From Anaerolineae bacterium (GTDB taxonomy: Bacteria > Chloroflexota > Anaerolineae > Aggregatilineales > JAFGMM01), in NCBI GenBank assembly GCA_027494055.1, contig JAOSJO010000001.1, forward strand, positions 372,001 to 436,000: a stretch of 64,000 nucleotides of DNA, written 5' to 3'. The position numbers and the translations under genes are program-made. Below, piece by piece: positions 37,972-44,937 of the stretch. Each line of letters begins with the position of its first letter. Position 1 is the first letter of the stretch. The notes under the pieces are model-generated. The model made no database searches, was not told where the DNA came from, and was given only the letters and a program-made list of their open reading frames with translations.

Positions 37972-38235
37972 TCAGCCGCTGGCTTCCTCTTGTCCTTCCT
38001 GTTGGGGAGTGTGGCGTCGGTGGCGATAGATGATCCGGCCACGGGTCAGGTCGTAGGGTGACAGTTCCACGCGCACGCGGTCGCCCAGCAGGATGCGGAT
38101 GTAATACTTGCGCATCTTGCCGGAGAGGTAAGCCAGTACTTCGTGCCCATTGTCCAGCCTGACCTTGAACTGCGTGCTGGGCAGCGCCTCGACAACCGTG
38201 CCTTCAACTTCGATCTTGTCTTCTTTCTTAGCCAT
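37972..38235 (-). CDS. infA: translation initiation factor IF-1
   Basis: An 87-residue S1/OB-fold protein with the IF-1 pattern [42 protein letters not shown] and [16 protein letters not shown]. It carries a 12-residue extra C-terminal tail ([12 protein letters not shown]). It blocks the ribosomal A site during initiation. A single-gene unit with its own promoter and terminator. Confidence 0.95.
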
Positions 38236-38366: not shown

Positions 38367-39581
38367 TCAGTCCTCCGCCTCCGCTTCGATGTCGGCTTCA
38401 GCCTCGACTTCGGTCTCGGCTTCGGGTTCGGCTTCGGTCAGCTCGCCGCCTTCGAGGGTCTGGCCCGCGAGCCAGCGCTGTTGTTCGTCCTCAGAGACTT
38501 CTTTGAGGCTCAGGCCAAGCCGCTGCCGGTGGCTCTCGATGCTGATGATGCGCATCAGCAGGCGCTGGCCCTCGAAGACCACTTCCGCCGGGTCCGCCGG
38601 TGGCGGGTCTGAGATCTGGCTGGTATGCAGCAGGGCCTCGATGCCCGGCTCCAGGCTGATGAACGCGCCGAACTGCGTCACGCGCGAGACTTCGCCCTCG
38701 ACAAGCTGGCCCACGTGGTACATATCATCGACCAACAGCCAGGGGTTGGGCTGGAGGCGCTTGAGGCTCAGGCCGATGCGCTTGCCTTCCTGGTCCAGGC
38801 GGAGCACGAACACCTCAACCTTGTCGCCAACGTTGAGCACCTCGCTGGGATGCCGCACGCGGTGCCAGGCCAGTTCGGAGATGTGGATCAGCCCGTCCGC
38901 GCCGCCGAGGTCGACGAACGCGCCGAAGTCGCGCAGGCCGCTCACCACGCCCTTGCGTACCTCGCCCTCGGTCAACTGCTCAAGCAGGACCTCCTTGCGC
39001 TGGTCGCGGCGCTCGCGCTGCGCCTCGCGCTGTGACAGGACGAGCCGGCGGCGGCGACGGTTGACCTCGATCACCTTGACGCTGAGGTTCTGGCCGATCA
39101 TGCTCGTCAGGTGCGCCTTGCGCTCCGACTCGTTCAGGCCGCGCGGCAGGTCCACGACGTGGGAGGCCGGCACGAACCCGCGCAGTTCTCCGAAGGGCAC
39201 AATCAGGCCGCCCCGGTTGGCGTCGGCGATGGTCCCCTGCCAGACCTCTTCGCTGTCCAGCAGTTCTTCGGCCCGGGTCCAGTCTTCGCTCTGCCGCGCC
39301 TGCGAGACCGAGACGATGAGGTTGCCGTCGTGGTCTTCTGGGTGCACGACCATGACTTGAATCTCCTCGCCGACGTTGAATTCGACGCCAGCGCCGAGTT
39401 TGTCGAGGTCATAGCGCGGCACGACCCCATCGCGTTTGAGGCCAACATCGACGATTATGCCGTAATCGTCGACAGTGAGGACGACACCGGTGAGGATGTC
39501 GCCGCGTTCGGGCTGCTCGAAATCGAACCACTCTTCGAGCAGGGTAGAGAAATCGGCCTCGCCTACGGTTGAAGCATCCAT
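38367..39581 (-). CDS. rpsA: S1 RNA-binding domain protein (ribosomal protein S1 homologue)
   Basis: A 404-residue protein with four S1 domains (starting near GDILTGVVLTVDDYGIIVD, VWQGTIADANRGGLIV, EVRKGVVSGLRDFGAFVD and LVEGEVSRVTQFGAFIS), followed by an acidic repeat tail (EAEPEAETEVEAEAD). Low-GC Gram-positive and Chloroflexota S1 proteins have this four-domain form. I start at ATG 39581 (MDASTVGE); the track uses an upstream TTG. Transcription comes through a leader with a consensus promoter and a terminator hairpin. Confidence 0.9.
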   Translation of the reverse strand: MDASTVGEADFSTLLEEWFDFEQPERGDILTGVVLTVDDYGIIVDVGLKRDGVVPRYDLDKLGAGVEFNVGEEIQVMVVHPEDHDGNLIVSVSQARQSEDWTRAEELLDSEEVWQGTIADANRGGLIVPFGELRGFVPASHVVDLPRGLNESERKAHLTSMIGQNLSVKVIEVNRRRRRLVLSQREAQRERRDQRKEVLLEQLTEGEVRKGVVSGLRDFGAFVDLGGADGLIHISELAWHRVRHPSEVLNVGDKVEVFVLRLDQEGKRIGLSLKRLQPNPWLLVDDMYHVGQLVEGEVSRVTQFGAFISLEPGIEALLHTSQISDPPPADPAEVVFEGQRLLMRIISIESHRQRLGLSLKEVSEDEQQRWLAGQTLEGGELTEAEPEAETEVEAEADIEAEAED

Positions 39582-39624
39582 GAGCTTTATGCCCCCTGAG
39601 GATAAGATTTTTGGGTGGTTCAAA

Positions 39625-39840
39625 CAAAAACCCGGCGTCCCCCCAGGTTGGCAGATGGACTGGTTGAGGGGCGCCGAGCTGTTGAACCTGTGGCTTTCGA
39701 GGAAACCTGCCTACAGCGCACTTCTGGCGAAGCGCACGCAGCCGATCTGATATTCGGTCTGTTAACGCAATGCTAAAGAACCGGTTTAGGGTCTGATAGC
39801 GGGCAAGTGCGGCGATCTCCGGTTTCCCCCGTGAAAAACT
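39625..39840 (-). ncRNA. putative structured leader or small RNA upstream of rpsA
   Basis: A consensus promoter (39847-39875) points into about 215 nt without an ORF. The segment ends with a hairpin (minus strand CGGCGCCCC...GGGGACGCCG) followed by GGGTTTTTG at about 39625, 45 nt before rpsA. This is either a free small RNA or an attenuator-type leader. I do not recognise it as 6S, SRP, tmRNA, RNase P or a known riboswitch. Confidence 0.45.
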
Positions 39841-39846
39841 GAACAT

Positions 39847-39875
39847 ATTATAGAGGTTGATAATTTGGCTGTCAA
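39847..39875 (-). promoter_or_regulatory. consensus promoter of the rpsA leader / small RNA
   Basis: On the minus strand TTGACA, a 17-nt spacer and TATAAT, all consensus. Confidence 0.8.
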
Positions 39876-39918
39876 ACGATATGAGGGTGACTTTCCTCAC
39901 CGTTGCGGGTGACAATCT

Positions 39919-41056
39919 TCACTCAGCGCCGCTGAGCCAGTCGAGCACGCGGTTGAGCAGCCCCTTGTCTTCGGCTTTCTGGGGCGTCACCTTGCGGCCC
40001 AACGTCTGCCCCAGCTCCTCGAAGATGCGACGTTGCGCTTCGGTGAGGTTTGTGGGGATGGCGACTTCGATCACGACGATCTGGTCGCCGCGCCCGGAGC
40101 TGCTCCCGTCGCGGCGCAGGCGCGGCACGCCCAGGCCGCGCATCCGCAACACCTTGCCGGATTGCGTCCCCGCCGGGATGATCAACTCCTGCTCGCCTTC
40201 CACTGTCGGCACCTGGATTCTGTCGCCCAGCGCCGCCTGCGCGACGTTGATAGGCAGTTCGAGCACGATGTCGTGGTTGCGGCGGCGGAAGTAGGGGTGC
40301 GGGCGCACCTTGACGTTGACGTACAGGTCGCCGCCGCGCACGCCGGGGTCGCCCGGCTCGCCCTCGCCGGCCAGCAGCACCTGCATCCCGTCGTCGATGC
40401 CGGGCGGGATGTTGACTTTCAGCCGCCGCGTGACGCGCGCCCGCCCGCTGCCCATGCAGTGGCGGCACGGCGTATCCACCACTTCGCCCCGCCCCTGGCA
40501 GCGCGGGCACGTGTTGGTGTAGATCATGGAGCCGAGCAGCGTCTGGCGGACCTGCTGCACCTCACCGGCGCCGTTGCATTCCGGGCAGCGTCGGGGGAGG
40601 TGCCCGGTTCCCGCGCCGCTGCCGCTGCACACCGGGCAGACCTCCTGGCGGGTGACTTCGATCTCCTTTTCGACGCCGAACACGGCTTCTTCGAAGTCGA
40701 TGGTGAGGCTGTGCTGGATGTCGCGACCGCGCCGCCGCCGGGTGCGCCCCCTGGTGGTGCGGAAGCCGCCGAAGAAGTCGGCGAAGATGTCCTCGATGTC
40801 CGGGAACCCGCCGGCGAACCCAAACGAGTCGTCGATGCCAGAGTGGCCGAACCGGTCGTAGCGCGCGCGCTGCTGGTCGTCGTTGAGCACGCTGTACGCC
40901 TCGTTGATTTCCCTTGAAGCGTACTTCGGCGTCCGGTTCCTTGCTGACGTCCGGGTGATACTTGCGCGCCAACTGACGGAAGGCTTTCTTGATCTCTTCC
41001 TTCGTCGCGCCGCGCGGGACGCCCAGAGTTTCATAGTAGTCGCGTTTGGTCGCCAT
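39919..41056 (-). CDS. dnaJ: chaperone DnaJ, with one frameshift
   Basis: The J domain begins [19 protein letters not shown] and includes the HPD tripeptide (YHPDVSK). A Gly/Phe-rich stretch and four CxxCxGxG zinc-finger repeats ([32 protein letters not shown]) follow, then the C-terminal substrate domains. One extra G at 40911-40913 shifts the frame in the J domain (RFK then EINEAYSVL). Repaired length is about 378 residues. It is co-chaperone of the dnaK encoded just upstream. Confidence 0.93.
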
Positions 41057-43855: not shown

Positions 43856-44937
43856 TTATTCATTTCGCGGGCCAGTCTCGCTGTTGACTTCGCCGTACAC
43901 GTCGAGGAGCAGGTCGCTCATCAAGCCGGCGACGTAACGCACCGTCGAGACGGCCCGGCCATAGCGCATCCGCACCGGCCCCAGCACGCCGAGCGCGCCG
44001 GTCGCCTGGTCGGAGACGCCATAGCGCGAGAGCACCATGCTGCAATGGCTCAGTTCTTCCCAGCGCCCCTCGCCAGCGATGACCACGCGCACCCCGCCGA
44101 TGTTGGGTCCCAGCGCCTCGCTGAGGATGCCGTCGAGGAACGTGTGCTCCTCCAGCAGGCGCACGGCCTGGAGCGCGCCGACGCTTTCCTCTTTGAAGGC
44201 CGCCAGCATCTCGGTCAGCCCGTGGTAGTAGACGTGGCGCGTGGGAAGGTGGTCGGCGCGCGCAATGACATCGGCGGCGACCTCAGCGACCTCGCGCTCA
44301 AGCAGGGGGAGCTGCGCTGCTTTGGTGTGGATTTCATGCGCGGTGAGGCCGGTGGCCACGTCGTTGATGCGCTCCGCCGCCTGGCTGAGCGCTTCCTGCG
44401 GTACCGGCTCGGCGAGCGTAAGCATCTCCTGGCGGACGTCGCCGCCGCGCAGCACAAGCACCATCAGCACGAGCCGTCCCTGCGTATGGATCAGTTCCAG
44501 ATGTTGGAGGCGGTTGGTCCCGGCGTGCGGCGGCGTCACCAACGATGCGCCCTGCACGGTGCGGGCGAGCACCGACGCAGCAAGCCGCAGCCACTGCTCC
44601 ACATCGTGGCGCGCCTGGTGGAACTGGTGGCGGATCATGCGGCGCTCGTCGAGAGGGAGTTCGCTGTCGCTGCTGAGGTGCTGCACGAAGTAGCGGTAGC
44701 CCGCTTCGGTGGGCACGCGCCCGGCGGAGGTGTGCGGCGCATAAATGAGGCCCAGCGCCTCGGCCGCGCCATCTCGTTGCGCACCGTGGCCGAGCTGACG
44801 TTCATGCTGTAGTCATCGACCAACTGCTTGGAACTCACCGGCGCGGCAGAACTGATAAACTCCCGCACGATCAGGCCAAGGATGTGCTCCTGGCGTGCGG
44901 TCAGTTCAACTGACAGGGGGTTGGTCGCGTCTGACAT
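43856..44937 (-). CDS. hrcA: heat-inducible repressor HrcA, with one frameshift
   Basis: The N-terminal winged helix LTARQEHILGLIVREFISSA...SSATVRNEM is in one frame and the remainder (EALGLIYAPHTSAGRVPTEAGYRYFV onward) in another, owing to a lost G near 44765. The repaired protein is about 360 residues. HrcA binds the CIRCE element, found 25 nt upstream of its own start, and controls the whole chaperone operon. Confidence 0.92.

Follow-up and report, generated by a model that had tools for sequence, protein, structure and literature searches.

The region ahead of rpsA in the 64,000-nucleotide stretch of Anaerolineae DNA that was analysed (hereafter the window) appears to encode a cis-acting leader RNA of the ribosomal protein S1 gene with a built-in attenuator, most likely serving feedback by S1, and on the strength of the sequence comparisons we give this reading about seven chances in ten. 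The first-pass annotation of the region had described a perfect promoter, about 215 nt without an ORF and a GC hairpin plus T-run just before rpsA; it had recognised no RNA family there, had left the choice between a small RNA gene and an attenuation leader of S1, and had pointed to an Rfam search, to covariation in related rpsA upstream regions and to conservation in relatives as the means of judging the reading. Of its two options the cis-acting leader is now favoured, as the element is linked to the rpsA ortholog and is lacking at 20 S1 paralogs, and in relatives the 5' end of the RNA pairs beside the rpsA Shine-Dalgarno (SD) site, an arrangement that is sensible only in cis.

The rpsA leader in the window

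The rpsA gene lies on the minus strand (38367-39581, ATG at 39581) and encodes a protein of 404 amino acids with four S1 domains, for which the best NCBIfam and PDB matches are 30S ribosomal protein S1, though below the NCBIfam cut-offs. It is followed downstream by infA, encoding IF-1 (37972-38235, minus strand), and the genes hrcA-grpE-dnaK-dnaJ are found upstream of the leader. Both ends of this upstream cluster carry irregularities: dnaJ (41056-39919, minus strand) has an apparent one-base frameshift at 40905-40915, with RFK in one frame and an 11-residue stretch in the next, which may be an assembly error, and hrcA, on the same strand, is also found in two frames (44635-44937 and 43856-44716, with the break at about 44640-44720). 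TIGR00331 matches the second hrcA frame from position 63, and the split suggests that the repressor gene is broken or that more indel errors are present.

Inspection of the region upstream of rpsA bore out the sigma-70-type promoter, TTGACA-N17-TATAAT, which runs on the minus strand from the start of TTGACA at 39875 to the end of TATAAT at 39847 and matches the consensus at 12 of 12 positions. It is the sole sigma-70-like site scoring at least 9/12 between 37000 and 43000, where shuffled sequences lead to an expectation of 0.5. From the position of the promoter, transcription would start at about 39840, about 260 nt ahead of the S1 gene, and the leader RNA, counted to the last base of the U-tract, would measure about 218 nt (39840-39622, minus strand), close to the length given earlier. 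This stretch was also correctly described as free of ORFs, with no convincing frame between promoter and terminator; a TTG frame of 6 codons is the sole candidate with an SD before it, and a 168-aa TTG frame at 39409-39915 has its start ahead of the promoter and enters rpsA out of frame.

The GC hairpin and the T-run are both present. The terminator hairpin core (39631-39679, minus strand, as are all features of the leader) has a GC-rich stem formed by GCTCGGCGCCCC (39679-39668) and GGGGGGACGCCGGG (39644-39631), with a predicted stability of about -27 kcal/mol, and relatives carry compensatory changes in the same hairpin. It is followed by the U-tract TTTTTGTTT (39622-39630), and hairpin and U-tract together (39679-39622) end 41 nt before the rpsA ATG, thus placing an intrinsic terminator between promoter and start codon as in attenuators of this type. 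One small correction concerns the T-run, which lies inside a longer inverted repeat around the terminator, with GGTTCAACA (39688-39680) as the terminator-wrapping arm and TGTTTGAACC (39626-39617) as the post-terminator arm that is complete only after read-through.

Upstream of the terminator, a helix between GGGGGAAACC (39821-39830) and GGTTTCCTC (39699-39707) is predicted to close a 5' domain in the window lineage, with a pair probability of 0.34 in the window and 0.69 for its counterpart in L022, the second genome of the same family. An internal hairpin, GCGCTTC-GCCA-GAAGTGCGC (39716-39736), appears in the minimum free energy and centroid structures alike, and the predicted fold of the whole leader is more stable than that of shuffled sequences (z of about -2.3 to -2.5). 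Between the terminator and the gene lie the A-rich linker CAAAAATCTTATCC (39600-39613) and the SD site AGGGGG (39592-39597).

Conservation ahead of rpsA orthologs

Searching the leader against 100 relatives by blastn returned short chance matches only; conservation is therefore not visible from sequence alone, and relatives were gathered by orthology of the S1 protein, with named records including Aggregatilineales, OLB13 and Ardenticatenia MAGs (Chloroflexota). The order is known mostly from metagenomes. Its members share a common anatomy before rpsA, in which a promoter 150-280 nt ahead of the start codon is followed by a leader that often includes a hairpin with a U-tract, then by an A-rich linker and a G-rich SD, the last being present in the window and in relatives. 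The best promoter score reached at least 10/12 in 91 of the 92 leaders of a first set, and in a second set of further rpsA orthologs a score of at least 11/12 was obtained for 78/80, as against 0/20 S1 paralogs from the same genomes and 0/400 shuffles. The conservation in relatives, whose absence the first-pass annotation would have taken as a refutation, is thus present in the form of a near-perfect promoter. The sequence of the leader differs from family to family while its architecture is kept, and promoter and leader accompany the rpsA ortholog across the order with a varying upstream neighbour, so that a structured RNA stands directly upstream of one ribosomal protein gene and is retained in related genomes. 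Among the S1-domain homologs of each genome the leader is found at only one ortholog. Genomes of the order hold about four S1-domain homologs of P0001 each, and a paralog is often located directly upstream of rpsA.

The individual elements are conserved to different degrees. By a strict test, which overlooks some hairpins that are plain by eye, a terminator-like hairpin with a U-tract was detected in 48 of 92 nonredundant leaders versus 8-12 in dinucleotide shuffles. Some lineages (e.g. L036, L037, L040, L045 and L046) have lost the T-run and retain the promoter, rpsA and the long-range helix P1 described below, and termination is therefore not universal. The linker before the SD contains 43% A versus 22% for the leader (86 leaders), and a small, nearly invariant candidate SD hairpin, CCC-NNN-GGG, occurs in many leaders. 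A covariance model of the genus g28 leader (R1) finds one copy per matched genome, adjoining rpsA, and reaches that genus only, plus weak matches elsewhere, so that no order-wide covariance model results. Leaders of ribosomal proteins such as S1 tend toward narrow distribution. Outside the order the S1 orthologs have mostly short UTRs, and L257, of family f41, alone has a similar long leader.

A motif, AUCGUUCG, also recurs immediately upstream of the SD in many rpsA genes, and in genus g28 it is often repeated close to the start of the leader. Allowing at most one mismatch within the last 75 nt, it was found in 40/167 leaders compared with about 4 in shuffles; carriers near the SD are L187-L216, L075, L101, L104, L150 and L185, together with the paralog UTRs L227, L229 and L244. 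The motif is absent from the window.

The covariation analysis of related rpsA upstream regions revealed compensatory changes in the terminator and in a 5' hairpin. In a 14-sequence alignment of genus g20 (A5), both-sided changes occur in 16 of the 22 pairs of these two elements, and the covariation score is 0.365, higher than in every shuffled alignment (0.212 ± 0.021) and every slid version (at most 0.16). Secondary structure is thereby supported by covariation in relatives, the counterpart for the window lineage being a two-sequence comparison only.

A long-range helix and the proposed mode of action

The first ~25 nt of the RNA in relatives are complementary to the strand between the U-tract and the SD, forming a helix that we term P1, which gives the strongest of the structural signals. 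In two MAFFT alignments of whole P1-enclosed elements the 3' strand was not flush, which made them unusable for P1 covariation, and since column alignments are ragged at this point P1 was tested by partner permutation on 73 leaders dereplicated at 75%. Own strands pair at -20.2 kcal/mol versus -15.6 ± 0.37 kcal/mol for permuted partners, with 0/20,000 permutations as low (z of about -12.6), and earlier versions of the test agree. The 5' end has no pairing preference for internal segments of its own leader (z of 0.0, 0.3 and -1.2), which indicates that the P1 signal is not due to composition, and no conserved competitor pairing for the 5' end was found within nt 40-140 of the leaders. In some g28 leaders an insert of ~100 nt follows the terminator and the 3' strand of P1 is still beside the SD, which argues that P1 belongs to the full-length mRNA. 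A pseudoknot pairing a 5' GGGG with the CCC ahead of the SD gained no further support and is not claimed.

The genomes of the window and of L022 make up family f1, in which canonical P1 is not formed (own-partner ranks of 0.55 and 0.95). In its place are two local helices, of which one encloses the terminator in both genomes; in L022 this wrapping helix is built from other letters that pair in the same way, with -10.5 and -12.6 kcal/mol for the strands' own pairs and -4.4 and -6.7 kcal/mol for crossed ones. A common theme of f1, as judged from its two sequences, and of the canonical form is that the strand after the U-tract is predicted to fold back and enclose the terminator.

A dedicated strong promoter would start the RNA and many transcripts would stop at the intrinsic terminator, which would thereby set the share that reads through. 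In read-through RNA the strand after the U-tract would fold back onto an upstream strand, this being the extreme start of the RNA in most families and the terminator stem's flank in f1, closing a compact domain and leaving the A-rich single-stranded linker and the SD exposed. Because its 3' strand follows the terminator, P1 cannot decide termination and would act on read-through transcripts, presumably on their translation or stability. The A-rich linker is a plausible site for S1 or an S1-loaded 30S subunit, and free S1 on the linker or the leader would lower read-through or translation; S1 binds RNA loosely, so the linker is weak evidence for S1 as the effector. No antiterminator or ligand-binding core was identified in the leaders. 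Transcription and termination in cells, the effector and the direction of regulation are what we infer here. S1 of gamma-proteobacteria is known to control itself autogenously (PMC10931766), and by this analogy the leader most likely serves feedback by S1 and probably sets the S1 level.

A strong, constitutive-looking promoter, a helix at the extreme 5' end of the transcript and the lack of a recognised aptamer in rpsA leaders by Rfam comparison would also suit a constitutive long 5' UTR that senses nothing, in which the terminator chiefly limits read-through from whichever genes lie upstream (dnaJ in the window, others in relatives) and P1 protects the 5' end. The layout persists, however, with different upstream genes, and a terminator placed after the promoter halts the gene's own transcript too, which is odd for insulation alone, and we consider this account rather unlikely. 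It is likewise improbable that the ~218 nt form a separate small RNA gene, equipped with a promoter and terminator of its own and merely located before rpsA, which leaky read-through would feed: the unit is complete from promoter to terminator, conservation in g28 is highest from the 5' end to the U-tract, and between that portion and the SD some leaders have about 100 extra nt, but P1 links the 5' end of the RNA to the SD side of rpsA even across that insert, the leader always adjoins rpsA in the genomes examined, lineages without the T-run keep promoter and rpsA, and the window's own genome holds no further copy. The terminated by-product of a cis-acting leader may still work as an sRNA. Attenuation by a ribosome-stalling leader peptide or a T-box, to which the terminator within the leader and a G-rich SD-like segment near the 5' end of many leaders could point, is very improbable, with no conserved upstream ORF (any candidate in 20 of 92 leaders, none convincing in the window) and no T-box or other Rfam match.

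Returning to the cis-acting leader, we tentatively propose a more specific form of it, which we regard as possible but doubtful: a new class of ribosomal-protein leaders, confined to this order of Anaerolineae with the possible addition of a sister family, in which the terminator is nested in a helix between the 5' end and the SD side and both read-through and translation of rpsA answer to free S1 or the 30S subunit. If true, S1 autoregulation would have been solved a second time, in an unrelated way, outside the gamma-proteobacteria, and a covarying rpsA leader with a terminator across the order would demonstrate that S1 can be balanced by independent means. The leaders of genus g28 and family f4 offer concrete RNAs for structure probing and S1-binding tests.

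Comparison with known RNA families and S1 control

The earlier failure to recognise an RNA family was confirmed by the Rfam search, which gave no family for the leader: against Rfam 15, with E values up to 10, the window region has no match except a meaningless one to mir-593 (E of 6.7), and T-box, riboswitches, known ribosomal-protein leaders and 6S RNA gave no score above the gathering cut-off. A Thr_leader match on L178 (31.8 bits against a cut-off of 55) and a RybB match on L161, also below cut-off, were taken as chance. Such a leader is absent from Rfam 15, PMC7247131, PMC2864571 and PMC10931766, a comparison outside which lies the 2017 set of 224 candidate RNAs. We suggest that the rpsA leader is a candidate new family of ribosomal-protein leaders with an unusual layout.

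Like 6S RNA, the leader measures ~180-220 nt and has a helix joining its ends; unlike it, the window RNA is fused to rpsA, and identity with 6S RNA was rejected because the genome's own 6S RNA sits elsewhere. With the ribosomal-protein leaders, such as those of L20 and S15 and the 20 candidates published in 2020 by Eckert and Weinberg, it shares a structured leader directly before one ribosomal-protein gene and covariation within one clade, whereas the main text of the 2020 set is without rpsA or Chloroflexi (PMC7247131) and the effector here is putative. A functional parallel is S1 of gamma-proteobacteria, an autogenous repressor that binds single-stranded AU-rich stretches in the 5' UTR of its own gene, although the E. 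coli rpsA initiation region has no canonical SD and is controlled in translation (PMC10931766). Both have a conserved structured 5' UTR, AU-rich single strands and the S1 gene as target, but in the leaders described here a G-rich SD is preceded by a terminator and a helix connects the SD region with the start of the RNA, and the E. coli region has no sequence or Rfam relation to the window leader. Because control in E. coli is translational and involves no canonical SD, the window leader falls outside the E. coli-type group, and the analogy between the two is one of function.
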